Shown here piece after piece: positions 1 through 32,854 of a stretch of DNA of 32,854 nt. Source of the DNA: Gemmatimonadota bacterium. Lineage in GTDB: Bacteria; Gemmatimonadota; Gemmatimonadetes; Longimicrobiales; Gaopeijiaceae. The notes beneath the pieces were generated by a model. It ran no database searches. It was not told where the DNA came from and was given only the letters and a program-made list of their open reading frames with translations. Numbering within the stretch: position 1 is the stretch's first letter; every line of letters starts with the position of its first letter. A program made the translations under genes and the position numbers. The DNA is taken from NCBI GenBank assembly GCA_007125125.1, contig SLDT01000027.1, positions 1 through 32,854 of the forward strand. Reading direction: 5' to 3'.

Positions 1-265
1 CGAAGACCCCGTCCCGAATGAAGCAGACATCCGAAATGGACACCTCGTCACCCGCGAGTCGCTTCTCGGATGAGGTCTGGATGATCGTCGGACACGCTCG
101 TCCCCCGAACAGGAGGGATGTCGTGTCGGACTTCGGGTCGCAACCGATGAGCAGAACCTTGCGGCCCTGCTGGGCCATCATGTAGCTCAGGTTTGCGAGG
201 GTGAAGCTCTTCCCGATGCCGCCCTTGCCGTAAATCGCAATGATCTGGGTTTCCGAGTTCGTCAT
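1..265 (-). CDS. bchX: BchX, chlorophyllide a reductase iron protein (N-terminal part, cut by window edge)
   Basis: The 88 codons present read MTNSETQIIAIYGKGGIGKS and continue with the very conserved NifH/BchX stretch containing LIGCDPKSDTTSLLFGGRACPT. BchX is the ATP-hydrolysing 4Fe-4S iron protein that passes electrons to BchYZ, which reduces ring B of chlorophyllide a to the bacteriochlorin. The P-loop GKGGIGKS is at about residues 13-20. The rest of the gene, including the later cluster cysteines, lies to the left of the window. The ATG at 263-265 overlaps the bchC stop codon (ATGA), so the two are translationally coupled in the classic crtF-bchC-bchX order. Telling BchX from BchL or NifH rests on the characteristic FGGRACPTIIQTSSEKRLAG segment. 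Confidence 0.96.
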   Translation of the reverse strand, partial: MTNSETQIIAIYGKGGIGKSFTLANLSYMMAQQGRKVLLIGCDPKSDTTSLLFGGRACPTIIQTSSEKRLAGDEVSISDVCFIRDGVF

Positions 266-1206
266 GCCACGTCTCTCCAGTCGAGGATCATCTTCACGCA
301 CGATGCGTCTTCAAAGGCTGTGCGATAGGCAGAGGCGGCTGTCGGCGCCTTGGCCCGATGGGTCACGAGACCTCCGAGCTTCAGCACGCCCCGGGTCACC
401 ATCCGGTTCACCTCGGCCAGGTCCGAGTCGGTCCACTCCGCCGCGACCCGAAATCGAGCCTCCTTCATGAAGGCAGGGGGGAACCGGAAGCGCACTTCGT
501 CGGGGTAGAATCCTGCAAGAACGACCTCTCCTCCGCGCGCGAGCACCGGGAAGAGGTGGTCCAGGATCCCGGGGTCACCGCTCACATCGATGATGGTGGT
601 GAAGGGCTCGTCGGCCTTCGCCCCGGGGGGTTGGACCTCGTAGCCTTCCGCGCCCGTTGCCCGGTCGGGATTGCGCTCCCAGACGATCGGGGGACGGCCG
701 GGGTCACGGGCGACCAGGAGCCGGGCCAGCAGCCTCCCGAGGGCACCATGACCCACGATGAGCACCGGGCCATCGTCTCCTGCCCGAGGCAGGGCGTGGT
801 AGGCGGTGGCCGCCAGGGCAAGAAGGCAGCCCTCCTCACCAAGCCCCTCGTCGATCCGGTGCACTCTGGCACCCGGGGCGACGATTCTTCGAGCTGCAGC
901 ACCGAAGAGCCCATGAGCACCGATGAACCCGCGCGACCCCGGTGCAAACACACGTTCCCCTCTCCGATGTCCGGACTCCGACCCGGCCCAGAGCACCTCT
1001 CCCGTTGCTTCGTAACCCGGGACGAGCGGGTATGCGAGCCCGGGGAAGGGCGGCATCCGGCCATCCCAGAGCAGGCGCTCGGTGCCTGTACTCACCCCCG
1101 TCCAGGCCACCTCGACGACGACGTCGTCGTCCGTGGGCGCAGAAAGGCCCAGGGTCCTCAGCGCCAGGAGTCCTGGTTCTTCGAGTACGACGGCCAGCGT
1201 GTCCAC
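262..1206 (-). CDS. bchC: BchC, 3-hydroxyethyl bacteriochlorophyllide a dehydrogenase
   Basis: This 314-residue protein belongs to the zinc-free, MDR-like BchC family, which oxidises the C3 1-hydroxyethyl group of bacteriochlorophyllide to acetyl, a late ring modification in bacteriochlorophyll a synthesis. Visible hallmarks are VSTGTERLLWDGRMP with a following PGYEATGEV near residues 38-70, the Rossmann motif LIVGHGALGRLLARL near 150-164, and the C-terminal DASCVKMILDW. The length matches the family. It lies downstream of crtF behind a gap with two PpsR palindromes and a sigma70-like promoter, and its stop overlaps the bchX start by ATGA. BchC upstream of bchX is the standard purple-bacterial arrangement, so confidence is high. 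Confidence 0.95.
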   Translation of the reverse strand: MDTLAVVLEEPGLLALRTLGLSAPTDDDVVVEVAWTGVSTGTERLLWDGRMPPFPGLAYPLVPGYEATGEVLWAGSESGHRRGERVFAPGSRGFIGAHGLFGAAARRIVAPGARVHRIDEGLGEEGCLLALAATAYHALPRAGDDGPVLIVGHGALGRLLARLLVARDPGRPPIVWERNPDRATGAEGYEVQPPGAKADEPFTTIIDVSGDPGILDHLFPVLARGGEVVLAGFYPDEVRFRFPPAFMKEARFRVAAEWTDSDLAEVNRMVTRGVLKLGGLVTHRAKAPTAASAYRTAFEDASCVKMILDWRDVA

Positions 1207-1302: not shown

Positions 1303-1331
1303 ATCATTGGGTCCCGAGTGGCAGATGTCAA
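1303..1331 (-). promoter_or_regulatory. Putative sigma70-type promoter of bchCX
   Basis: On the minus strand TTGACA (1331-1326) is followed after 17 bp by AATGAT (1308-1303; 4 of 6 matches to TATAAT). The -35 hexamer is part of the proximal PpsR palindrome, so bound repressor would cover the RNA polymerase site. The -10 call is approximate. Confidence 0.55.
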
Positions 1332-1343
1332 GGAGAAGCGACA
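1326..1343. promoter_or_regulatory. PpsR/CrtJ operator, proximal copy upstream of bchC
   Basis: TGTCAAGGAGAAGCGACA fits TGT-N12-ACA exactly. It is separated by exactly 8 bp from a second match at 1352-1369. Tandem sites 8 bp apart are the arrangement known for cooperative CrtJ/PpsR binding at bchC in Rhodobacter. A ppsR gene is present in this window. Confidence 0.8.
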
Positions 1344-1351
1344 AAATTGCC

Positions 1352-1369
1352 TGTCCAAAAACTTTGACA
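1352..1369. promoter_or_regulatory. PpsR/CrtJ operator, distal copy upstream of bchC
   Basis: TGTCCAAAAACTTTGACA is an exact TGT-N12-ACA match, with the fuller consensus half TTGACA on its right. Eight bp separate it from the proximal copy, which puts both on nearly the same face of the helix in the crtF-bchC gap. Confidence 0.8.
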
Positions 1370-1411: not shown

Positions 1412-2617
1412 TCAGGGTCGAGCGACGAGCAGGGAGGTCAGGACCGGCGAGCGATGTCTAGGGCGTCGCACGCGCGTAAATCCCGCCGTCTTCAGGAGCC
1501 CGGAGAGTTCGGCGGGCGACCGGGGCCGCCCCTGGCCCATGGCGAGGAGGTAGAGCGCGAAATAGGCGGCACCGACGGTCTCGGCGCCGCGAACACCCGC
1601 CATGGGCTCCGCGACGAGCACGGACCCGCCGGGGTGAACCGCCGCGCGCGCGCGACGAAGGAGGCGAACAACGGCGTCATCGTCATGATCGTGGAGAATA
1701 CGCACGAGCGTGATGAGGTCTGCTCCCTCCGGCAGGGGATCGACGAGGAAGTCGCCTCCATGGGCGCGAATCCTGGCGGACTCGTTCAGGGCTGCGATCC
1801 GAACCCGAGCACGTTCTGCGACAGCGGGGAGGTCGAAGAGCTCCAGCTCGAGCTCTGGATGTCGGTTCGCCACGGCAAGGAGAAACGCGCCCTCACCCCC
1901 GCCCAGGTCCAGAACTCGTTCGTGGCCGGCGAAGTCGTAACCATCGAGGATCTCGGTCGCAACGAGCGGTTGCGAACCCGCCATCAGGGATGAGTACGCA
2001 GCCACCTCCGAGGGTTGCAGGGACCGAGGGTCTCTTCCCCCGGCATAGGCCCAGTAGCCCTGTAGCTCCATGGAGCGGTCAGGATCATTGGCGATGAGAG
2101 CGATGGGATCCTGAAGATCCCGGTAGAGCAGGGTGTTGTGCTCGATCATGCGGGCGAGTGCCTGGTTCCCTGCGAGAGGAGCCCCGAGATGGCCGAGGCC
2201 GATCGTGCGCCCGTCACGCGAACGGCGCAGAAGCCCAAGCGCTACGCCCGCCCCCAGAAGCCGCTCCAGACGGTCGGGGGGAAGCCCGAGGGCCTCGTAC
2301 AGGCGATCGACCGGCTGGCCTCCATCCTTGAGCCGATCGAAGAGATCGAGCCGTACGAGTGCCAGCACGGTCTGGGAGTAGACGAACCCGGAGAGGAGGT
2401 CGAAGAGCTGGCGCGAGCGGGAGAGGGCGATCGGCCGTGTGAGGGGGAACGCCGCCGCACGCCGCTGGAACTCGGGAGAGGCGAGGAGCGCTGTCCATCG
2501 GTCTCGCAGCGGATCGAGCAACCGGAGCATGCGTGACAGGAGGCCCGCAGCACGGGGCGCCTCGGCGGAGCCCCCGGACTCGACCGGAAGCGCACGAGAG
2601 GTGGCGTCTGCGCTCAT
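1412..2617 (-). CDS. crtF: CrtF, hydroxyneurosporene/demethylspheroidene O-methyltransferase
   Basis: A 401-residue SAM-dependent methyltransferase of the plant-type O-methyltransferase family. An N-terminal CrtF-specific region (LASPEFQRRAAAFPLTRPI, then FDLLSGFVYSQ) precedes a winged-helix dimerisation domain at about 85-150. The SAM-binding motif VLDLGGGEGAFLLAV lies near residue 235, and the RILHDHDDDAVVRLLRRAR segment carries the usual catalytic His. CrtF methylates the tertiary hydroxyl of acyclic carotenoids to make spheroidene or spirilloxanthin type products. The position just upstream of bchCX is the classic crtF-bchCXYZ order. The start ATG at 2615-2617 overlaps the stop of a short open frame. 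BchU-type methyltransferases are related, but the N-terminus and context favour CrtF. Confidence 0.9.
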   Translation of the reverse strand: MSADATSRALPVESGGSAEAPRAAGLLSRMLRLLDPLRDRWTALLASPEFQRRAAAFPLTRPIALSRSRQLFDLLSGFVYSQTVLALVRLDLFDRLKDGGQPVDRLYEALGLPPDRLERLLGAGVALGLLRRSRDGRTIGLGHLGAPLAGNQALARMIEHNTLLYRDLQDPIALIANDPDRSMELQGYWAYAGGRDPRSLQPSEVAAYSSLMAGSQPLVATEILDGYDFAGHERVLDLGGGEGAFLLAVANRHPELELELFDLPAVAERARVRIAALNESARIRAHGGDFLVDPLPEGADLITLVRILHDHDDDAVVRLLRRARAAVHPGGSVLVAEPMAGVRGAETVGAAYFALYLLAMGQGRPRSPAELSGLLKTAGFTRVRRPRHRSPVLTSLLVARP

Positions 2618-2835
2618 CCGGGGACGAGGCTGCCCGAGGTGGTGATGGGGTGCTCCCTGGAGAGGAAGTGTCGAACGGGGACGACCCGGAGCGGGGGGCC
2701 CTCCGGGTCAGCCCCGCCGGGGCGGGGTCGCGGATGGGGAGGGCCCCCGAGCGCCCCGGGACGACACGGAAGACTGCCCGTCAAGTGGTCCCGCCCTTCT
2801 CTGGTCCTGGCTTCCTGGATGCTGACAATGTCCAT
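2614..2835 (-). other. Possible short leader ORF (73 codons) upstream of crtF
   Basis: A minus-strand ATG at 2833-2835 follows a strong Shine-Dalgarno (AAGGAGGAATG), and the frame ends in TGA at 2614-2616, overlapping the crtF start as ATGA. The product is Pro/Gly/Arg-rich with no recognisable domain, and it uses some AGG and AGA codons that are uncommon in a high-GC gene. It could be a translated leader coupled to crtF, or an untranslated leader with a chance ribosome-binding site. A strong inverted repeat lies inside it (2683-2709). I do not recognise a function. Confidence 0.25.
2683..2709. repeat. Inverted repeat (hairpin) in the crtF leader
   Basis: GACCCGGAG at 2683-2691 pairs perfectly with CTCCGGGTC at 2701-2709 across a 9-nt loop. 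It is followed by another GC palindrome (around 2711-2727). No T-run follows, so it is more likely an mRNA leader structure than a terminator. Confidence 0.4.
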
Positions 2836-2846
2836 TCCTCCTTACA
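2829..2846. promoter_or_regulatory. Possible PpsR operator upstream of crtF
   Basis: TGTCCATTCCTCCTTACA matches TGT-N12-ACA exactly. On the minus strand the same bases contain the AAGGAGG Shine-Dalgarno of the leader ORF, so the match could be accidental. There is no second copy 8 bp away on either side. Confidence 0.4.
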
Positions 2847-15599: not shown

Positions 15600-15629
15600 A
15601 GTATAGGGGTCGTTCGGGAAGATTGTCAA
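15600..15629 (-). promoter_or_regulatory. Strong sigma70-like promoter of the bchF-lhaA-puh operon
   Basis: On the minus strand TTGACA (15629-15624) is followed by an 18-bp spacer and TATACT (15605-15600). This is the best promoter match in the window. The -35 box is one arm of the PpsR palindrome at 15624-15641. Confidence 0.7.
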
Positions 15630-15641
15630 GGATCCTTGACG
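15624..15641. promoter_or_regulatory. PpsR operator shared by the divergent bchF and aerR promoters
   Basis: TGTCAAGGATCCTTGACG contains a perfect 16-bp palindrome (15625-15640), with TGT-N12-ACG against the TGT-N12-ACA consensus. Its left arm supplies the bchF -35 box, and its right arm TTGACG (15636-15641) could serve as -35 for aerR. One dimer or tetramer bound here could control both directions. Confidence 0.7.
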
Positions 15642-15805
15642 TACAGCAATCTGGACAGTATTTCAAGAGAGTTGAACGCCTCCCGCCGGCATCGGCGCGG
15701 AAGCCGCCTTCGGATCGCGGCGCGACCCGGGTCAGCCGGTCAAGCAGAAGACCCGGGCTCGCGAGGGACATCCGAGTTCTCTACGAGCGCGATGGGGAGA
15801 AGTCC

Positions 15806-16609
15806 ATGAAGAGGGAGATCCGGCAACACCAGGAGCGTCGCGGCACCCGGGCATGGACTGGCACAGCGCTTCACCCATCGGATGGAAGGCTCGAGATCCA
15901 GCCCTGGAAGCATCCTAAGCTATCCTCGCCCGCCCCTCAGACCATCGAGCCGGAAGACCTGGAGCGGTTCATCGAGATCGCCCTCGAGTTCGACGATGCC
16001 GCCCTCGATCGCTTCGTCGCCTCCCTGATCCGTCGGGGCATCCCGGGCGAGCACATCCTCACTGACCTGATTCCTCCCGCGGCGCGCGAAATGGGCGCGC
16101 GCTGGGAACGTGACGACTGCAACTTTCTCGAAGTCACGATCGTGCTTGGACGCCTGCAACGCCTCGTCCGCGCAGCCCTGCTCGAATCCGGCCAGGGCGA
16201 GAGCACCGGACCCGAAAGCCCTCATGCTCCATCCATACTCCTCGGGGTGCTGCCCCACCAGCAGCATACCCTCGGACTGGTCATCGCCTCCAATTTCTTC
16301 CGGTCCCGAGGATGGGTCGTGTCCATGACCCCCTCTCACCCGGGAGAACGGCCGTCGTCGAGGGTCGCAAGGAGTCGATTCGACGTCGTGGCCTTCTCCC
16401 TGGCGACGCCCAGCTGCCTCTCCGAGGTCGAGAAGGAGATCCGGCTCGTGCGCAACGGCTCGAAGAACTCGCGCATCCGGATCATTGTCGGCGGTGGACT
16501 TCTCGAGCGGGCCCCGGAAGCCGCCGACGGACTCGGAGCAGACGCGATCGTGATCGACCCACAGAGGGCACCGGAAATCGCCGAGGCCTTCCTGTTCAAG
16601 GGAGTTTAG
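15806..16609 (+). CDS. aerR: AerR/PpaA, B12-binding antirepressor of PpsR
   Basis: The 267-residue protein has an N-terminal helical B12-binding cap (about 45-130: ERFIEIALEFDDAALDRFVASL, AAREMGARWERDDCNFLEVT) and a C-terminal Rossmann-like B12 domain starting at ILLGVLPHQQHTLGLVIASNFFRSRGW. His151 and His154 lie in the PHQQHTLG motif, where AerR-type proteins place their cobalamin-ligand histidine. In Rhodobacter AerR/PpaA binds cobalamin and antagonises CrtJ/PpsR. The start ATG 15806 follows GGGGAGA; the frame is open back to 15623 but only through the promoter region. It lies directly upstream of ppsR, the usual pairing. Light sensing by B12 is inferred from the family. Confidence 0.87.
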   Translation: MKREIRQHQERRGTRAWTGTALHPSDGRLEIQPWKHPKLSSPAPQTIEPEDLERFIEIALEFDDAALDRFVASLIRRGIPGEHILTDLIPPAAREMGARWERDDCNFLEVTIVLGRLQRLVRAALLESGQGESTGPESPHAPSILLGVLPHQQHTLGLVIASNFFRSRGWVVSMTPSHPGERPSSRVARSRFDVVAFSLATPSCLSEVEKEIRLVRNGSKNSRIRIIVGGGLLERAPEAADGLGADAIVIDPQRAPEIAEAFLFKGV

Positions 16610-16773
16610 ACGATTGTTATTCTGTCATGGTCCTCCAGATGGCCGGAGCAATCAGGCTCTCTTCTTCTGGCTCGGCACCCGTTCTGGTACATGTCGCAAC
16701 CAGCCTCGGGAAGTGAGGGAGTGCGACGCGGAGGGAGGTGGGGCCCTTGCTAAGAACTGGACGAGATACCGTC

Positions 16774-18174
16774 ATGGATGCTGAATCTCAAGAGAGATCG
16801 GTCGTCGACCGACTCATTCAGGCATCGTCGGACCTGGCGCTTCTCCTGACGGAAGACGGCATGATTCAGGAGGTGCACCTGGGCCGTGCCTTTGCCCGGG
16901 AACGGACGGACGCGTGGCTCGGCCGCCGCTGGTCGGACACCGTGACCCTGCCCACGAGGGACAAGGTCGTCAACCTCCTCGACGAGGCGAAGAGCACCGG
17001 AACCTCGCGCTTTCGCCAGGTGAACCAGGTCTTTGCCGACGGGGCCGAGATTCCCGTCAGCTTCACCGTGGTCCGTCATGACCGTGATGGATTCCTCCTC
17101 GCGCTCGGAAGGGACCTGCGGACTCTCTCCCAGCTCCAGCAGCAACTCGTGGACGTGCAGCAGGCACTCGAGCGGGACTACTGGAGGCTCAGGCAGGTCG
17201 AGACTCGCTACCGCACCCTCTTCCAGGAGTCGTCCCAGGCGGTACTCCTGATCAGCGCCGCAACTCGCCGCGTTGCCGATGCGAACGATGCAGCGGGACG
17301 CGCGCTCGGCATCCCGCTGCGAGATGTCCTCGGGGCCCGCCTGCCGGACGAGCTGCCGATCGACACGGCCGAAGCCGAAGAGGTCCGGCGTCTGCTCGAA
17401 GCGGTCTCGGAAGGAGCCCGCGTCGAGCCGCTTACGGTTCACCTCAAGGACCAGGAGCCGTGTCTGCTCGACGCATCCCTGATCCGGGAAGATGGCGAGA
17501 ACGTCCTTCTCGTGCACCTTCGCCCGGACTCCGCAGTCGAGCCCGGGCTGACCGATCGCGATCGCGCCAACCTTCTCCTTCTGGATCGGGTTCCCGATGC
17601 GTGGATCGTCACTGATCACGAAACCCGGATCCTGAGTGCGAACCGCACCTTCCTCGAACTCGCCCAGCTTTCGCGAGAAGAAGATGCAATCGGAGAGAGC
17701 CTGAGCCGCTGGCTGGGCAGGCCGGGAGCCGATGTGACGGTCCTCCTTGCGAGCCTGGAGAAGTTCGGCGTCGTGCGACTCTTCCCGACCACACTTCAGG
17801 GCGAGCTGGACATGGAAACGGAGGTGGAGCTCTCGGGCACGATCACCTCCGAGCTGGAGTCACCCCGGATCGGCCTCGTCCTTCGAAACATCGGGCGGCG
17901 GCTCACGTCTTCTACTGCCTCTGCCGAAGCCAATCGGGACCTCGGTCGATTCCTCGACGAGCTGACCTTCCGAGTGGGGAGAGCTCCGCTCAAGGAACTC
18001 ATTCAGGACACCGTCGGGAAGGTGGAGGCCCACTTCATCGAAGCTGCCCTTGAAATGACCGACGGAAACCGCACGGCCGCCGCCGAACTCCTCGGCGTCA
18101 GCCGACAGAGCCTTTACACGAAGCTGAACCGGTACAATCTGGAGGGTCCCACCGGGGGACTCGAGACGAGCTGA
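16774..18174 (+). CDS. ppsR: PpsR/CrtJ, PAS-domain repressor of photosynthesis genes
   Basis: The 466 residues (from ATG 16774; a GTG at 16738 would add 12) show an N-terminal PAS domain (about 12-115), a Gln-rich coiled linker (LSQLQQQLVDVQQALERDYWRLRQ), two further PAS domains (about 150-255 and 266-375) and a Fis-type helix-turn-helix at the C-terminus (GNRTAAAELLGVSRQSLYTK, from about residue 431). PpsR binds TGT-N12-ACA and represses bch, crt and puc-type genes under air; such sites occur in this window. The only cysteine is C230; the recognition-helix region has none, unlike the redox-active Cys of Rhodobacter CrtJ/PpsR. A clear intrinsic terminator follows the gene. Confidence 0.93.
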   Translation: MDAESQERSVVDRLIQASSDLALLLTEDGMIQEVHLGRAFARERTDAWLGRRWSDTVTLPTRDKVVNLLDEAKSTGTSRFRQVNQVFADGAEIPVSFTVVRHDRDGFLLALGRDLRTLSQLQQQLVDVQQALERDYWRLRQVETRYRTLFQESSQAVLLISAATRRVADANDAAGRALGIPLRDVLGARLPDELPIDTAEAEEVRRLLEAVSEGARVEPLTVHLKDQEPCLLDASLIREDGENVLLVHLRPDSAVEPGLTDRDRANLLLLDRVPDAWIVTDHETRILSANRTFLELAQLSREEDAIGESLSRWLGRPGADVTVLLASLEKFGVVRLFPTTLQGELDMETEVELSGTITSELESPRIGLVLRNIGRRLTSSTASAEANRDLGRFLDELTFRVGRAPLKELIQDTVGKVEAHFIEAALEMTDGNRTAAAELLGVSRQSLYTKLNRYNLEGPTGGLETS

Positions 18175-18187
18175 CCGCCGGCGCTGC

Positions 18188-18217
18188 GCGTCCCGCGTGG
18201 CGGGATGCCTTTTTTTT
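18188..18217 (+). terminator. Intrinsic terminator after ppsR
   Basis: GCGTCCCGC (18188-18196) pairs with GCGGGATGC (18200-18208), with one G-T wobble, across a GTG loop. Eight T residues follow at 18210-18217. It separates aerR-ppsR transcription from the bchG operon. Confidence 0.85.
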
Positions 18218-18226
18218 CCACACAAC

Positions 18227-18244
18227 CGTCCATTCTTCTTGACA
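18227..18244. promoter_or_regulatory. Near-consensus PpsR site and -35 box upstream of bchG
   Basis: CGTCCATTCTTCTTGACA differs from TGT-N12-ACA at one defining base. Its right arm TTGACA (18239-18244) is a perfect -35 hexamer; 17 bp later stands AAGATT (18262-18267), a weak -10. It lies just after the ppsR terminator and so should drive bchG-bchP-crtE. Confidence 0.55.
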
Positions 18245-18304
18245 GAGCACGCCGTACTCTCAAGATTACAACGAGGGCAGAACCGATGGCCGGCCCCCAG
18301 TGCC

Positions 18305-19156
18305 GTGCTCGAACTCTTCAAGCCGATCACCTGGTTCCCGCCCATGTGGGCCTTCCTCTGCGGCGCCGTCTCAAGCGGAGTCTCCCTGGGAGACCGTTGG
18401 GGAGTCGCCCTTCTGGGCCTTCTCGTGGCCGGCCCGCTGGTCTGCGCGGCGAGCCAGGCCATCAACGACTGGTATGACAGGGAGGTAGACCGGATCAATG
18501 AGCCCGAGCGACCGATTCCATCCGGCCGGATTCCCGGTCGCTGGGGCCTTGGCCTCGCCCTGCTCTGGACCGGCGTCTCAGCGGGTGCCGGGTTCTTCCT
18601 CGGGACCTGGGGATTCGTTGCGACACTCCTTGCCCTCGCCCTCGCGTGGGGCTATTCGGCACCGCCCTTTCGATTCAAGCAGAATGGCTGGGTCGGCAAC
18701 CTGGCTGTCGGAATCTCCTACGAAGGACTCGCATGGATTACCGGCGCTGCCGTTCTTCTTGGCGGAGCCCTTCCGGGAAACGACATCCTTCTCATCGCGC
18801 TGCTCTACAGCCTCGGAGCTCACGGGATCATGACCCTGAACGACTTCAAGGCGATTGAGGGCGACCGCATCTCCGGAATCCGCTCCCTCCCGGCGACCCT
18901 TGGTCCCGACCGAGCCGCTCAGGTGGCTTCCGGCGTTATGGTGGCAGCCCAGAGCATCGTGATTCTCTTCTTTCTGCTTCGAGGACAGATGTGGCACGCC
19001 GGGGGCATCGCGCTTCTCCTCCTCGCACAGATTGTCTTCATGGGCTGGTTCATGGCGCGTCCGCGGGAGCGCGCCCTCATCTTCAGCGGGGCAGGCGTTC
19101 CGCTCTACGTGGCAGGAATGATGATCGCCGCCTTCGCCCTGCGGGCGGGTGTCTGA
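18305..19156 (+). CDS. bchG: BchG, bacteriochlorophyll synthase (start unresolved)
   Basis: A polytopic UbiA-family prenyltransferase that esterifies bacteriochlorophyllide a with geranylgeranyl or phytyl diphosphate. The conserved LELFKPITWFPPMWAFLCGAVSSG, NDWYDREVDRINEPERPIPSGRI (first Mg-diphosphate motif) and NDFKAIEGDRISGIRSLP (second motif) are all visible. The frame is open from 18197, but that GTG sits in the ppsR terminator loop. The best start signal is GAGGGCAGAACCG before ATG 18286, which is out of frame by one base; deleting one C from the CCCCC tract at 18294-18298 would give MAGPSAVLELF. I therefore report the in-frame GTG 18305 as a conservative start and suspect a one-base indel. 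Confidence 0.9.
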   Translation: MLELFKPITWFPPMWAFLCGAVSSGVSLGDRWGVALLGLLVAGPLVCAASQAINDWYDREVDRINEPERPIPSGRIPGRWGLGLALLWTGVSAGAGFFLGTWGFVATLLALALAWGYSAPPFRFKQNGWVGNLAVGISYEGLAWITGAAVLLGGALPGNDILLIALLYSLGAHGIMTLNDFKAIEGDRISGIRSLPATLGPDRAAQVASGVMVAAQSIVILFFLLRGQMWHAGGIALLLLAQIVFMGWFMARPRERALIFSGAGVPLYVAGMMIAAFALRAGV

Positions 19157-19250
19157 GCCATGCTGTCCGCCTCATCTCCCTCCCGCCAACTGGCCACAAG
19201 ACCGACCCGCACCGCTCGTGGATCACGCGTACCCAAGTAGAGAGAATGAC

Positions 19251-20441
19251 ATGACTGATCACTTCGATGCCGTGGTTGTAGGTGGTGGCCCCGCCGGCGC
19301 CACCGCGGCACATGAACTGGCCCTGGCGGGTCACCGCGTGGCGCTCCTTGACCGAGCTGGTCGCATCAAGCCATGCGGAGGAGCCGTTCCACCTCGCCTG
19401 CTCGATGCTTTCGACGTCCCGGAAGACCTCCTCGTGAACCGTGTCGACACGGCACGGATCCTGGCCCCCTCGGGACGCCATGTGGACATTCCCGTTGGTG
19501 ACGGCTTCGTCGGCATGGTCGATCGGGGTCCCTTCGACGAGTGGCTCCGTCAGCGCGCGGTTCGCGCCGGCGCAGAAAGGGTGACCGGCAGCTTCAACCG
19601 GGTCGAGCGCAAGGACGACGGCACGACGCTCGTCCACTACACCGAGGGTGCCAGTCGCAGGGGAGCGGAGAAGAGTCTGTCGACACGCCTCATCGTAGGG
19701 GCCGACGGCGCGCTTTCCAAGGTTGCCAGGCAGGAGGTACCGAGAGCATCGGAGGGAGAGTTCGTTTTCGCCTATCACGAGATCATCGAATCCCCCCCGA
19801 CAGAAGACGAGAGCTTCGGTGCTGCCCGCTGTGATGTCTACTATCAGGGCGACCTCTCGCCTGACTTCTATGCCTGGGTCTTCCCCCACGGGCACACCAC
19901 CTCGGTCGGGACCGGTTCGACGGTGCGTGGATTCGATCTTCGTGGCGCCGTGGCCTCCCTGCGCGCTACGACGGGAATGGACCGGGAAGAGACGCTACGA
20001 AGCGAGGGAGCCCCCATCCCGATGAAGCCCCTGCCCCGTTGGGAAAACGGGCGTGATGTGATTCTCGCGGGCGATGCCGCGGGTGTCGTCGCCCCCTCTT
20101 CCGGCGAGGGGATCTTCTATGCCATGACCGGAGGCCGCCTTGCCGCCGAGGCAGGCTCGGAGTTCCTTCGCACAGGTCGCGCTCGGGCCCTTGCCCGGGC
20201 TCGGCGGCGGTTCCTCCGAGGTCATGGTGCGGTCTTCTTCATCCTCGGAGTCATGCAGCGCTTCTGGTACTCCGATGATGGTCGCAGGGAGCGATTCGTC
20301 GCGATCTGCCGGGACCGGGACGTTCAGGAGCTCACCTTCGAGGGCTACATGCACAAGGAGCTGGTTCGGGCGCGCCCTCTTGCCCATGCCCGGATCTTTT
20401 TCAAGAACATCGGCCACCTCACGGGACTGGTCTCGCCATGA
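19251..20441 (+). CDS. bchP: BchP, geranylgeranyl (bacterio)chlorophyll reductase
   Basis: A 396-residue flavoprotein with the FAD-binding motif VVVGGGPAGATAAHEL at residues 7-22, the KPCGGAVPPRLLDAF segment typical of geranylgeranyl reductases, VDRGPFDEWLR, and the second FAD motif AGDAAGVVAPSSGEGIFYAM. It reduces the geranylgeranyl tail stepwise to phytyl. The start is ATG 19251, where homology begins; the frame is open from 19149, but that part has no family resemblance and overlaps bchG. The gap from bchG is 94 bp, and its stop overlaps the crtE start (ATGA at 20438-20441). The bchG-bchP pairing is standard in purple bacterial clusters. Confidence 0.94.
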   Translation: MTDHFDAVVVGGGPAGATAAHELALAGHRVALLDRAGRIKPCGGAVPPRLLDAFDVPEDLLVNRVDTARILAPSGRHVDIPVGDGFVGMVDRGPFDEWLRQRAVRAGAERVTGSFNRVERKDDGTTLVHYTEGASRRGAEKSLSTRLIVGADGALSKVARQEVPRASEGEFVFAYHEIIESPPTEDESFGAARCDVYYQGDLSPDFYAWVFPHGHTTSVGTGSTVRGFDLRGAVASLRATTGMDREETLRSEGAPIPMKPLPRWENGRDVILAGDAAGVVAPSSGEGIFYAMTGGRLAAEAGSEFLRTGRARALARARRRFLRGHGAVFFILGVMQRFWYSDDGRRERFVAICRDRDVQELTFEGYMHKELVRARPLAHARIFFKNIGHLTGLVSP

Positions 20442-27656: not shown

Positions 27657-30431
27657 TCAGGTCACCTCGTAGGCGAAGTTCCCGGTCTCGTCGAGCGCGA
27701 CCACGACGCGCGAGGGGTGGCGCTCCTCGGCCATGGCCTGGAGGATCATGCGGGAAATATCGGGGAGGAGCGTGTTCGTGAGAATGTTGTCGATGTTACG
27801 CGCTCCGCTCTCGACCTCGGTGCACCGGTCCGCGATCGCCTCGATGATCGGGTCGTCCACCTCGAGCGCAATCCGGTGCGTCCCGGCGAGCCGGCGGCGA
27901 ACCTTCCCGAGCTTGAGTCGGATGATCTTGCGCAGCACCTCGTCGCGCAGCGGGAAGTAGGGAATGATCACGGTGCGACCGAGGAAGGCGGGCTTGAATA
28001 CCTCGTCGAGCTCGGGCTTGAGCGCACGGGCCAGCCCATCGTGCGAGGGCATGGTCTCGGGGTCCGCGGTGAGCTTCATGATCGTGTCGGTCCCCGCGTT
28101 CGTCGTGAGGATGATGATCGTGTTCTTGAAGTCGATCTCGCGTCCCTCACCGTCCTCCATGCGACCCTTGTCGAAGACCTGGAAGAAGAGCTCGACCACG
28201 TCGGGGTGCGCCTTCTCGATCTCGTCGAGGAGGACGACCGAGTAGGGGCGACGGCGCACAGCCTCGGTCAGGACGCCTCCCTCGCCATACCCGACGTACC
28301 CGGGCGGCGAGCCCTTGAGCGTCGAGACGGTGTGCGCCTCCTGGAACTCTGACATGTTGATCGTGACGAGATTCCGCTCTCCCCCGTAGAGGAGGTCCGA
28401 GAGGGCAAGCGCAGTCTCCGTCTTCCCGACGCCGGAGGGGCCGACGAGGAGGAAGACCCCCACCGGCTTCTCGGGATCGTCGATCTGGGCCTTCGAGGTG
28501 CGGATTCGGTGGCTGATGATCTCGAGGGCATGGGACTGCCCGATCACGCGCTCTCCCAGGGTGCGCTCGAGCTCGAGAGCCGCCTGGATGTCGTCTCTCA
28601 GCATCTTCCCGACCGGGATCCCCGTCCAGCCCGAGATGACCTGCCCCACGAGCTCGGCGTCGACCTGCACGGGTACGAGGGGATCCTCGCCCTGGAGCCC
28701 GTCGAGCTCGGTTCCGAACTCGGCCAGGAGGCTGCGCAGTTCATCGGCTGAGCGTCCGGCCAGCCCCCGGCGGAACTCGAGGAGGGGGTCGGCCTCACCG
28801 CCTCCCTCTTCGGGTCCATCACCCGCCTCGCCCGACGTCGCCACCTCCGCTTCGGTTCCCTCCTCCTCGACACTCGCTTCGGGGGCAGCCCCCTTCGAGC
28901 CGTTCTCGAGGACCTCGCGCACGGTCAGGATGCGGCGCACGAGGCCCATCTCGCTCTCCCAGCGCGTCCGGAGCCCCTCCAGCTCTTCCCGCGTCGAGGT
29001 GACCTGCCCGGCAATCTCGGCGAGCCGCTCTCCATGGTCGGCGCCGACCGCCTCTTCCCGGGTAAGGACCCGCGCCTGGGTCTCGAGGTCCTGCAGCCGC
29101 CGCTCGGCCGCTTCGACGGAGGCGGGCTTCGCCGCCTGCCCCAGCGCCAGCCGTGCACAGGCGGTGTCGAGCACGCTCACCGCCTTGTCCGGGAGCTGAC
29201 GATCGGGAATGTAGCGATGCGAGAGGCGCACGGCGGCGTGCGCTCCATCGTCCATGATCCGCACACGGTGATGGTTCTCGAGCGAGGGAACGATGCCCCG
29301 CATCATGACCATGCACTTCGCCTCGTCCGGCTCCTCGACCTTGATGACCTGGAAGCGGCGGGTAAGGGCAGGATCCCGCTCGAAGTACTTCTTGTACTCG
29401 GACCAGGTCGTGGCTGCCACAGTCCGGAGCTCACCGCGGGCAAGTGCCGGCTTCAGGAGGTTCGCGGCATCACCCTGACCCGCCTGGCCCCCTGCCCCGA
29501 TCATCGTGTGCGCCTCGTCGATGAAGAGAATGATCGGAATGGGTGACGATTTCACCTCGCTGATCAGTCCCTTGAGCCGGTTCTCGAACTCGCCCTTCAC
29601 CCCGGCCCCCGCCTGCAGGAGCGCCAGGTCGAGAGAGTGGAGCTGCACGTTCAGGAGAGGCGGGGGCACATCTCCCTCCGCGATCCGCATCGCGAAGCCC
29701 TCCACCACCGCCGTCTTGCCCACGCCGGCCTCGCCCACGAGGATCGGGTTGTTCTGGCGGCGTCGCATCAGGATGTCCACGACCTGCCGCACCTCCCAGT
29801 CGCGGCCCAGGACCGGATCGAGCTCGCCCTGTCTCGCCCGCTCCGTGACATTCACCGTGTACTGGTCCAGGTGCGGTGTCTTCCCATCGCCCGCGGTCTT
29901 GCCCCGTCCCGCGCCGGAGGGGCCCGTGCCGGACGCCGGCACGCCGACACTCCGCTCCTCGACGGAGTCGGCCACGATCTCCGCGAAGTTCTTGCGCAGG
30001 TCTTCCGGCTCGATCTTCTCGAGCTCACGACTCACGTCCCGGATCACGCGTCGGAGGTCGGGATCGAGCAGGATTGCAAGCACGACGTACCCGCTCCGCG
30101 TGCGCTGCCCCCCGAAGTCGACCGAGCCGAGGGTCCAGGCGCGCGTGAGTGCATCCACGAGGTGGGGGCTCAGGCTCGGCGTCCGGGCATTCCCGGTCTT
30201 GAGCCGGTCGAGTGAAGCGGTGAGCTCCTCGGCCAGCCTCGAGCGATTGATCTCGTAGCGCTTGAGGATCGCTGCGAGGTCGCCATCGGTCACATCGAGC
30301 AGCTTCATGAGGAAGTGCTCGAGCTCGACGTCGTAGTGGGTGCGCGAGAGGCAGAGTCCCGCAGCCGCCTCCACCGCACCCCGGGTCTCCTGGTTCAGCT
30401 TCCCGATCAGGGCTCGCAGATCGACGCGCAT
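27657..30431 (-). CDS. tssH: TssH/ClpV, type VI secretion AAA+ ATPase
   Basis: A 924-residue Clp/Hsp100 ATPase. It has a T6SS-type N-domain (LRALIGKLNQETRGAVEAAAGLCLSRTHYDVELEH), a first AAA+ module with Walker A GEAGVGKT at 233-240 and Walker B ILFIDEAH at 301-308, a middle domain, and a second AAA+ module with GPSGVGKT at 664-671. The gap between N- and AAA-domains and the DQYTVNVTERARQG segment are typical of ClpV rather than ClpB. ClpV disassembles the contracted TssB/TssC sheath. The end of the middle domain carries an unusual acidic low-complexity stretch of about 40 residues (512-550). It starts 18 bp after tssG and ends 2 bp before the TPR lipoprotein start. Confidence 0.95.
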   Translation of the reverse strand: MRVDLRALIGKLNQETRGAVEAAAGLCLSRTHYDVELEHFLMKLLDVTDGDLAAILKRYEINRSRLAEELTASLDRLKTGNARTPSLSPHLVDALTRAWTLGSVDFGGQRTRSGYVVLAILLDPDLRRVIRDVSRELEKIEPEDLRKNFAEIVADSVEERSVGVPASGTGPSGAGRGKTAGDGKTPHLDQYTVNVTERARQGELDPVLGRDWEVRQVVDILMRRRQNNPILVGEAGVGKTAVVEGFAMRIAEGDVPPPLLNVQLHSLDLALLQAGAGVKGEFENRLKGLISEVKSSPIPIILFIDEAHTMIGAGGQAGQGDAANLLKPALARGELRTVAATTWSEYKKYFERDPALTRRFQVIKVEEPDEAKCMVMMRGIVPSLENHHRVRIMDDGAHAAVRLSHRYIPDRQLPDKAVSVLDTACARLALGQAAKPASVEAAERRLQDLETQARVLTREEAVGADHGERLAEIAGQVTSTREELEGLRTRWESEMGLVRRILTVREVLENGSKGAAPEASVEEEGTEAEVATSGEAGDGPEEGGGEADPLLEFRRGLAGRSADELRSLLAEFGTELDGLQGEDPLVPVQVDAELVGQVISGWTGIPVGKMLRDDIQAALELERTLGERVIGQSHALEIISHRIRTSKAQIDDPEKPVGVFLLVGPSGVGKTETALALSDLLYGGERNLVTINMSEFQEAHTVSTLKGSPPGYVGYGEGGVLTEAVRRRPYSVVLLDEIEKAHPDVVELFFQVFDKGRMEDGEGREIDFKNTIIILTTNAGTDTIMKLTADPETMPSHDGLARALKPELDEVFKPAFLGRTVIIPYFPLRDEVLRKIIRLKLGKVRRRLAGTHRIALEVDDPIIEAIADRCTEVESGARNIDNILTNTLLPDISRMILQAMAEERHPSRVVVALDETGNFAYEVT

Positions 30432-30449: not shown

Positions 30450-31553
30450 TCAGAGTGTGAGAATCGTTTCGTCAGCGTCTTCGGCACGCGGACGAGAGGC
30501 CAGCCAGCTCCCCCAGCCGAGCGGAGGCGAACTATCACTATGCGCTTCGAGTCGCGTTCCCGCCACCTCTTCTCTCCGAAGCACGAGCTGCAACTCGGCC
30601 TCGACCCCGTCGTGGGTGAAGAAGCGCACCAGGCGCCGAAGCAGTTCGTGGTCGGGCGCGCCCGGGAGCAGCCTGTCGTAGGCGTCCCGCGAGAGGGGTC
30701 CCATCCGGATCCGAATGCGGGCATGGGGATCCCAAACTTCGTCCCCGACGACCGCGCCTGCACCGAGCAGGTCGGCCTCGGTCTCCTCGCCGATGCGGCA
30801 GAGGTCATCCGGACCGAGGCGGAGCCATCCCCCGATGAAGGGCTCCACGGAGACCTCCGTCTCGAACCGATCCATGAGGAGCTGCTCGAGGGCGGGGGCG
30901 CTCCGGGTCGGCGCCGCCAGGATTCCCATGTACCAGCCGATCGTCTCCCGGCGAACCCCCGGGAAGGCCTCGTCCGGCTCATGGCCCATCCCGACCAGAT
31001 CAAGGAGGTGGCTCAGGGCGGTGTCTTCCAGGCCCCGTTCGAGGGCCAGCTCCGGCCGCCCCTTTCGCCATGCGGCGTAGAGAAGCGAGAGGGCGCGGTG
31101 CTGGAAGATGTCGAGGAAGTCTCGCGGAGAGCGGTCGCCGACGCGTTGCCGCTCGAGCACGAGGACGGAGTAGGGATGGGGAAGGACGCCCATCCCGCCC
31201 AGGAGCCCGAAGGTGTTCGCCGTCAGACGGTCGGGACCGGTGTCCGCGAGCTCGATCTCCTGGACCTCGCGTGGAGCGGAACCAAGCGACGGGTTCTGCG
31301 AGAGACGCACGACCTCTGCCGAGGGGTCTCCGAAGGTGCCCGGATGGCCTCGCTCGGCGCGCCTTCCCTCGAGAACACGGATCAGCTGGAAGAGTTCGAA
31401 GCTCCGCCCCTCGCGCCGCAAGGCTCCCTCGAGGGCGGGAAATCGGTCGGCAGCGGTGGGCGTGGGTCGACTGGCAGGCGACACGCTGCCCGAGGCGGGC
31501 TCCGGTGTGCCTTCTTCCGTCGGGTCGGGCGCGGTCAGACCAGTGTCTTCCAT
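30450..31553 (-). CDS. tssG: TssG, type VI secretion baseplate protein
   Basis: The 367 residues match TssG (ImpH/VasB): FELFQLIRVLEGRR near the start, VRLSQNPSLGSAPREVQEIE, NTFGLLGGMGVLPHPYSVLVLER, ALSLLYAAWRKGRPELALE and PFIGGWLRLGPDDLCRIG. With TssF, TssE and TssK it builds the baseplate wedge. The start ATG 31551-31553 is preceded by GAGGGCCGG; a TTG at 31571 would add six residues. The gene overlaps the end of tssF by 19 bp and is followed 18 bp later by tssH, a common tssF-tssG-tssH order. An N-terminal Pro/Thr/Ser-rich stretch of about 40 residues precedes the conserved part. Confidence 0.94.
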   Translation of the reverse strand: MEDTGLTAPDPTEEGTPEPASGSVSPASRPTPTAADRFPALEGALRREGRSFELFQLIRVLEGRRAERGHPGTFGDPSAEVVRLSQNPSLGSAPREVQEIELADTGPDRLTANTFGLLGGMGVLPHPYSVLVLERQRVGDRSPRDFLDIFQHRALSLLYAAWRKGRPELALERGLEDTALSHLLDLVGMGHEPDEAFPGVRRETIGWYMGILAAPTRSAPALEQLLMDRFETEVSVEPFIGGWLRLGPDDLCRIGEETEADLLGAGAVVGDEVWDPHARIRIRMGPLSRDAYDRLLPGAPDHELLRRLVRFFTHDGVEAELQLVLRREEVAGTRLEAHSDSSPPLGWGSWLASRPRAEDADETILTL

Positions 31554-32854
31554 CCGGCCCTCGGTGGCCAATCGCGAATCGGTTCCTTGCGCTGCATGCT
31601 GCGCGCGCGGAGCGAGGTGAAGCTGTTCATCGAGGTGTAGAGACCGAAGAAGCGATCGAGCACGCTCGCCAGCAGGTACACGCTCCCACCCGCAAAGTCG
31701 TCCTCGTCGAAGACGACCTCGATCCGGTGCCCTCGTGCGAACGAGATGCCGTGCTCCGTGCGCACGCGGGCGTGGGCAGGCTCGCTCCGGACCTCTCGAA
31801 TTCCCTCGATCTGGCGCTCCGCGCCTGCACCCGCCGAGAGGTTCTGGAGCTGGAGAAGCTGGCGCAGCGACACCGCGCCACCCTCGAGGAGCGACCCGTA
31901 GTTCAGGGAAAGCTGGGAGATCAGTCGCCAGATCCGCGCGCGCCCGAGTTCCGGCATGACGGCGGGTGTCGGCCGCCGGAGCGCCTCGATCTGGCTCAGG
32001 GGTCCGCCCCCGTCGAGCCGAAAGTCCTCTCCCTTTCCCGCTCCGATCGGGAGCCGGGACGGGATGTCCCCGTTGAAGCAGGTCAGCCTCAGGGTGGCCA
32101 CGTCCTCGTCCGGGTAGAACGTGCGGTCCGAGACATCGACGAAGCAGATCTCGGTCAGCGGCTGATCATCGGCCCCGCGCGTCCCGGCACGACGGCGCTC
32201 CCGCCAGTAGATGCCCTCGTCCAGATGGCTTCGTACCGGGGCGTAGAAGGGCTGGACCCGCCTCGGCTCGGGAAGGTCGGGACTCACGAGGCGCACCTCG
32301 TCGACCGAGTAGGTGAAGATGGAGTTCTGCCGCCGAAGGTCGGGGACCACCCGGTATTCCGTGCGCTTCTGGGTCAGGAGCAGGGGTTCGGAGGTGCGAC
32401 CGAAGAGGTTCACCGCGGGAGTACAGCCCAGGCGGAAGGCCGACGCATCGAGGCTGTCATCGAGTCGGTTGCGCCAGTCCGTTCGCTCGAAGCTCCGGAG
32501 CTGGAAGGTGAACTCGATTCGGTCCCCGAAGCCCCGTTCACGAATGCTCTCGAGCCCCCCGACATCGATGAAGTTGAACTTCTCCGGGAAGGCGAAGACC
32601 TCCTGGAGGAGCGAGTAGGCCAGGAGGGAGCGCCGAGGGGGGGCGAGGAGCAGCTCGTCGGGCCGGAAGCCGACCGGGGTGAGATGCTCGGGCCCGAGGC
32701 TGAAGGGCTCGACCCGGGACCCCGGTGTCGGGTCGCGGACCACGACCTCGAGACAGTTGTTCAGGAGCAGCTCGTAGAGGGCCGCGGTCAGCCCTGCATC
32801 CGCGTTCAGGTGGAGCCGGAGCGAGTCGAGGTTGAGCTCCCCGATGCTCCCCCC
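31535..32854 (-). CDS. tssF: TssF, type VI secretion baseplate protein (5' end outside window)
   Basis: The frame is open to the right edge, so the N-terminal part of this normally ~600-residue protein is missing; 439 residues are present. Edge residues read GSIGELNLDSLRLHLNADAG and then LTAALYELLLNN, a well-known TssF segment. Further on are PVGFRPDELLLAPPRRSLLAYSLLQEVFAFPEKFNFIDV, TPAVNLF, RVVPDLRRQNSIFTYSVDEV, ISQLSLNYGSL and the C-terminal GSVYLLASVLDRFFGLYTSMNSFTSLRAR. TssF forms the baseplate wedge with TssG. The run is transcribed from beyond the window, where tssE, tssB and tssC may lie. Confidence 0.95.
   Translation of the reverse strand, partial: GGSIGELNLDSLRLHLNADAGLTAALYELLLNNCLEVVVRDPTPGSRVEPFSLGPEHLTPVGFRPDELLLAPPRRSLLAYSLLQEVFAFPEKFNFIDVGGLESIRERGFGDRIEFTFQLRSFERTDWRNRLDDSLDASAFRLGCTPAVNLFGRTSEPLLLTQKRTEYRVVPDLRRQNSIFTYSVDEVRLVSPDLPEPRRVQPFYAPVRSHLDEGIYWRERRRAGTRGADDQPLTEICFVDVSDRTFYPDEDVATLRLTCFNGDIPSRLPIGAGKGEDFRLDGGGPLSQIEALRRPTPAVMPELGRARIWRLISQLSLNYGSLLEGGAVSLRQLLQLQNLSAGAGAERQIEGIREVRSEPAHARVRTEHGISFARGHRIEVVFDEDDFAGGSVYLLASVLDRFFGLYTSMNSFTSLRARSMQRKEPIRDWPPRAGWKTLV

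Follow-up and report, generated by a model that had tools for sequence, protein, structure and literature searches.

The bchC promoter and its surroundings

The window, by which we mean the whole 32,854-nt stretch of DNA analysed here, carries photosynthesis genes in two gene orders that are common to it and to proteobacteria, crtF-bchC-bchX and B12 protein-ppsR-bchG (Table 1). In Roseobacter litoralis, too, a methyltransferase gene occupies the matching position upstream of bchC. Upstream of bchC in the window lie two exact TGT-N12-ACA palindromes separated by 8 bp, as the first-pass annotation had reported, and our results support its reading of them as PpsR-type operators.

Table 1. Genes and regulatory features of the window (positions within the 32,854 nt)
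Feature	Position	Strand	Basis or remark
bchX, N-terminal part, cut by contig end	2..301	-	Fer4_NifH; follows bchC, as in Roseobacter litoralis
bchC	262..1206	-	TIGR01202, 372.7 bits, cut-off 291
Inferred -10 hexamer AATGAT	1303..1308	-	Promoter scan; 17-bp spacer; outside both palindromes
Inferred -35 hexamer TTGACA	1326..1331	-	Promoter scan and register scoring; within proximal palindrome
Proximal PpsR-type palindrome TGTCGCTTCTCCTTGACA	1326..1343	-	Exact TGT-N12-ACA; overlaps -35
Spacer between palindromes, 8 bp	1344..1351	-	Gap of 8 in 7/7 family phototrophs; other gaps near background
Distal PpsR-type palindrome TGTCAAAGTTTTTGGACA	1352..1369	-	Exact TGT-N12-ACA; about -73 to -56 relative to inferred start
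crtF/bchU-like O-methyltransferase, upstream of bchC	1412..2617	-	Methyltransf_2; weak TIGR02716
Single palindrome TGTAAGGAGGAATGGACA, upstream of methyltransferase	2829..2846	-	Exact; without tandem partner
B12-binding AerR/PpaA-like protein	15623..16609	+	PF02310 over cut-off; adjoins ppsR as in Roseobacter litoralis
ppsR, PpsR2-type, Phe433 replacing redox Cys	16738..18174	+	TIGR02040, 436 bits, cut-off 275; alignments, trees
Intrinsic terminator 3' of ppsR	18188..18218	+	
Second tandem operator CGTCCATTCTTCTTGACA-8-CGTACTCTCAAGATTACA, upstream of bchG	18227..18270	+	10/12; second-best tandem in window; Rhodobacter-type register
bchG, likely ATG start	18287..19156	+	TIGR01476/ChlG; sequence
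bchP	19149..20441	+	TIGR02023

The earlier proposal that the proximal palindrome supplies the -35 is borne out by the promoter scan and by the register scoring described below. TTGACA (1331-1326) followed after 17 bp by AATGAT (1308-1303) is the sole promoter-like site between positions 1200 and 1420; it scores 10/12 (0.0 in shuffles) against the E. coli consensus, which may not be that of the host's sigma factor. The window shares AATGATACA at the -10 with one relative (G191), and the other four relatives have other -10-like hexamers at 17 to 18 bp. We also considered a third palindrome at the -10, matching 4/6 in both the window and G191, but dropped it because it is missing in those other four.

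Scanning the genome with the motif, which the first-pass annotation had recommended, gave an answer that depends on whether single sites or tandems are counted. The window contains six exact TGT-N12-ACA palindromes versus 1.79 expected, but genome-wide there are 144 single palindromes against 113 in a reversed-pattern control, so we dropped single-palindrome counts as weak evidence. The lone palindrome upstream of the methyltransferase gene may accordingly be a single site or a chance occurrence. The exact tandem with an 8-bp gap is, on the other hand, unique in the 3.5-Mb genome, and allowing up to one mismatch yields two matches (zero with the reversed pattern), at bchC and at a light-harvesting beta gene, both of them photosynthesis genes. 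In their spacing, their position at a photosynthesis-gene promoter and the presence of a cognate PpsR in the genome, the bchC palindromes are a PpsR/CrtJ operator pair as judged from sequence, and binding by PpsR is predicted.

The same assembly (G000) has two separate light-harvesting beta genes. One (on contig C48) is the main pufB, adjoining a bchZ-like end; the other (on contig C271) is a Pfam LHC beta gene in a second antenna operon, which has a PpsR pair of its own. We rejected an assignment of the C271 gene as puf, the main pufB being on C48. Neither bchN nor bchD was found over cut-off in this assembly, though it contains bchC, bchG, bchP and puf; the assembly is incomplete, and the contigs concerned are probably absent. 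Beside the photosynthesis genes the window also carries a type VI secretion cluster, with a ClpB/ClpV-like AAA protein (27657-30431) and TssF (31535-32854), both on the minus strand.

Conservation and register of the operator pair

We drew 395 Gemmatimonadota genomes, of which 42 have bchC over cut-off, 7 of these in the window's family (f1), and searched the 320 bp preceding bchC in those 42 and in 79 proteobacteria, with shuffled controls. A pair with a gap of 8 bp was found in 8, 15 and 31 of the 42 Gemmatimonadota at zero, one and two mismatches (shuffles 0, 0 and 0.17) and in 12, 46 and 66 of the 79 proteobacteria (shuffles 0, 0 and 0.47), while gaps of other lengths were near background. 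All seven phototrophs of the window's family have the pair before bchC, and four plasmid-borne proteobacterial clusters, three of them from Rhodobacterales, carry it as well. The host is indeed distant from Rhodobacter, as had been supposed: it belongs to the Gemmatimonadota, within which its family, probably of the Longimicrobiales, and the Gemmatimonadaceae fall in different orders of one class. The phylum was assigned through the BchC of one of its genomes (L011), which is at zero distance from that of a named Gemmatimonadaceae MAG (L104), with matching promoters. The BchC comparison is compatible with either one or two acquisitions of the genes by the two Gemmatimonadota groups. That the operator and the gene are linked, by transfer or by common ancestry, is well supported. 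Because the pair lies far above chance and both it and the gene orders are common to proteobacteria, the suggestion that the regulatory DNA travelled with the genes is plausible. Six relatives also have a pair upstream of bchG (11/12 or 12/12) in the same position as in the window, and further tandems in relatives lie upstream of bchG, bchE, a light-harvesting beta gene and a V4R (BchJ-like) gene.

The first-pass annotation had also held that the locus copies the Rhodobacter bchC layout. This stands for the 8-bp pair, typical of closely linked CrtJ palindromes (PMC5362033, PMC9144470), and for the presence of two TGT-N12-ACA palindromes of which one carries the -35 (PMC5362033, PMC9144470), but not for their placement. 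In R. capsulatus one bchC palindrome runs from -47 to -30 and the other from -21 to -4, and they cover the -35 and the -10 (PMC5362033). The window pair is displaced 26 bp upstream of this published layout, so that it lies over the -35 and the sequence preceding it, and no palindrome reaches the -10.

We scored this difference with two models, bearing in mind that the shift had been spotted before the scoring was done. The Rhodobacter model, with the -35 in the distal and the -10 in the proximal palindrome, was passed by 43 of 47 loci from the named scan, and by two more after manual replacement of a falsely chosen upstream pair; the remaining two are the Gemmatimonadaceae record and a locus that scores 8/12. 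Among proteobacterial pairs 45 of 46 fit it (two reassigned by hand). For six f1 genomes including the window the outcome is reversed, with 6/6 fitting a model with the -35 in the proximal palindrome and 0/6 the Rhodobacter model. In these six promoters the proximal palindrome closes with TTGACA or TTGACG, and AATGAT, AAATAT, CATAGT or CATGAT follows 17 to 18 bp on; the shifted register scores 9 to 10/12 in every one, against a best Rhodobacter-register score of 6/12 for the window and 7/12 for its five relatives. With the -10 outside the pair, a layout identical to that of Rhodobacter is rejected.

The seventh f1 phototroph (G288, genus g6) has the Rhodobacter register at bchC, and its BchC branches at the base of the f1 clade; therefore the shift most likely arose inside the family, most simply once. 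In the window's genome the antenna promoter (TTGACA-N17-TATCAT) is in the shifted register too; the one in a relative (G150) is similar (10/12), and G288 has an unshifted one. The bchG pair is in the unshifted register in all seven f1 phototrophs, the window included. One genome thus offers a natural test of operator position, with the same pair in two registers.

A PpsR2-type regulator beside an AerR-like gene

The window does encode a PpsR, as had been claimed (Table 1). TIGR02040 is over cut-off in 7 of the 21 f1 genomes searched, exactly the seven with bchC, and the window's genome has one copy. The recognition helix (SRQSLY-KL-RY) is conserved. At the position of the HTH Cys420 of R. capsulatus CrtJ, however, the window protein has Phe, as do 27 of 27 Gemmatimonadota PpsR; among the proteobacterial sequences first compared, this residue is Cys in 22 of 25 and Tyr in 3. 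The window PpsR thus lacks the residue that marks a redox-sensing CrtJ/PpsR, although redox sensing by a route other than the HTH Cys is possible.

Phylogenetic analysis splits Gemmatimonadota PpsR and proteobacterial PpsR2-like proteins from all other PpsR (support 100/99). Grouping with PpsR2 and having no HTH Cys, the window protein is of the PpsR2 type. PpsR2 of Rhodopseudomonas palustris and Bradyrhizobium is under light control and, in the majority of strains, has no redox Cys in its HTH; there it acts beside a redox-sensing PpsR1 and a bacteriophytochrome, whereas a single PpsR was found in the window's genome (PMC6899989, PMC4452267). In a topology test, holding all Gemmatimonadota PpsR together was rejected (p-AU 0.012) and holding those of f1 together was not (p 0.098), values that are indicative because the tested group was picked after the first tree. 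Two sequences (L261 and L267) had very long branches in that tree, and both, with L266, were omitted from the second. Alphaproteobacterial PpsR2-like proteins adjoin the PpsR of the window's family, which hints at transfer between the groups.

The B12-binding AerR-like protein lies beside ppsR, the arrangement by which AerR/PpaA antirepressors are recognised, and is likely a partner of PpsR. In R. capsulatus the B12-binding AerR is a co-regulator of CrtJ (PMC5362033, PMC9144470). In Rubrivivax gelatinosus, crtI and pucB have paired palindromes as in the window, with gaps of 8 or 9 bp, and PpsR binds an 8-bp pair without redox effect; its PpsR differs from that of the window in retaining the HTH Cys, and it regulates other genes (PMC4452267). 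Gemmatimonas phototrophica resembles the window's host in belonging to the Gemmatimonadota, having an acquired cluster and possessing ppsR and ppaA, yet it has one predicted PpsR site, at bchID-puhE, with a bchC operator unreported in that study, and its photosynthesis genes hardly respond to oxygen and show little PpsR-like regulation (PMC11406998).

A model of bchC control and its alternatives

What is read directly in the DNA is a set of conserved palindromes at fixed spacing, promoter-like hexamers, a ppsR gene and a Cys-to-Phe replacement; the account of binding, cooperativity, repression, start site and AerR action that follows is our interpretation. We favour, with a probability of roughly 0.7, a PpsR operator pair that was acquired or co-descended with the photosynthesis genes and now acts in a shifted register, by cooperative binding and occlusion of the -35, with release through a partner. 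PpsR from the same cluster would bind both palindromes, probably cooperatively, with a distance of 26 bp (about 2.5 turns) between its dimers. The proximal dimer would lie over the TTGACA -35 and block RNA polymerase, and the distal dimer would stabilise it from upstream. Relative to purple bacteria the core promoter has moved by exactly one palindrome-plus-gap unit, which would leave the -10 free; this change would have come later, at both bchC and an antenna promoter. Since this PpsR has no HTH Cys, we expect release through a partner such as the AerR/PpaA-like protein, in response to light, and not through Cys oxidation.

That the Rhodobacter register was retained, with a -35 TGGACA in the distal palindrome, the -10 in the proximal one and AATGAT downstream a coincidence, would agree with the register seen in the scored proteobacterial pairs, in Gemmatimonadaceae, in G288 and at bchG within f1. 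We judge it improbable, because its best hexamers score as poorly as reported above and lack A2 or T6 of the -10, and because random downstream sequence of 60% GC passes in the shifted register, given TTGACA, in about 7% of cases. Still stronger objections meet the view that PpsR binds neither palindrome and that both came about by chance as a side effect of a TTGACA -35. Single TGT-N12-ACA sites do occur about as often as the reversed pattern, but the exact tandem is unique in the genome and missing in shuffles, and its 8-bp gap is kept across two phyla; we strongly disfavour this view.

A third alternative accepts the pair as an operator by origin and takes it for a relic, PpsR control of bchC having been lost in the host as in G. 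phototrophica, whose weak regulation and one predicted site (PMC11406998), like the loss of the redox Cys, would fit. Against it, PpsR is retained in every phototroph of the family, and all six shifted promoters (window plus five relatives), diverged as they are, share an identical distal TGT and ACA, while conservation averages 4.1 of 6 in the distal N12, 3.6 in the gap and 3.7 in the 15 bp upstream. As no promoter element overlaps the distal half-sites, their preservation favours an operator, and we consider a relic slightly less probable again than a retained Rhodobacter register. The regulatory operator pair that we prefer could nonetheless be part of a weak system in the window's host too, given how little PpsR-like regulation and how few predicted sites G. 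phototrophica has (PMC11406998).

A broader scenario is that the bchC and antenna pairs both slid by 26 bp within one Gemmatimonadota family under a repressor without HTH-Cys oxygen sensing, and that alphaproteobacterial PpsR2 shares its closest ancestry with Gemmatimonadota PpsR, perhaps by return transfer; taken as a whole we regard it as rather unlikely. If the operator pair did come with the genes, cis-operators and their cognate repressor can remain together through transfer between phyla. The replacement of Cys by Phe in all the Gemmatimonadota PpsR examined is also a testable reason for the near-absence of oxygen regulation in G. phototrophica, whose weak response would fit the loss of this residue.

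Two observations concern other members of the phylum. Three genomes of genus g2 in the window's family (G053, G061 and G064; e.g., L152, L153 and L154) have 11 to 16 tandem TGTAATGT/ACATTACA-like palindromes each, despite which PpsR over cut-off was not found in these three; the palindromes probably belong to another regulator or a repeat family. In a set of Gemmatimonadaceae (L012, L013, L014, L018, L020-L025 and L027-L031) only a few bases separate the proximal palindrome from the bchC GTG start downstream of it, and a leaderless bchC mRNA is therefore predicted.
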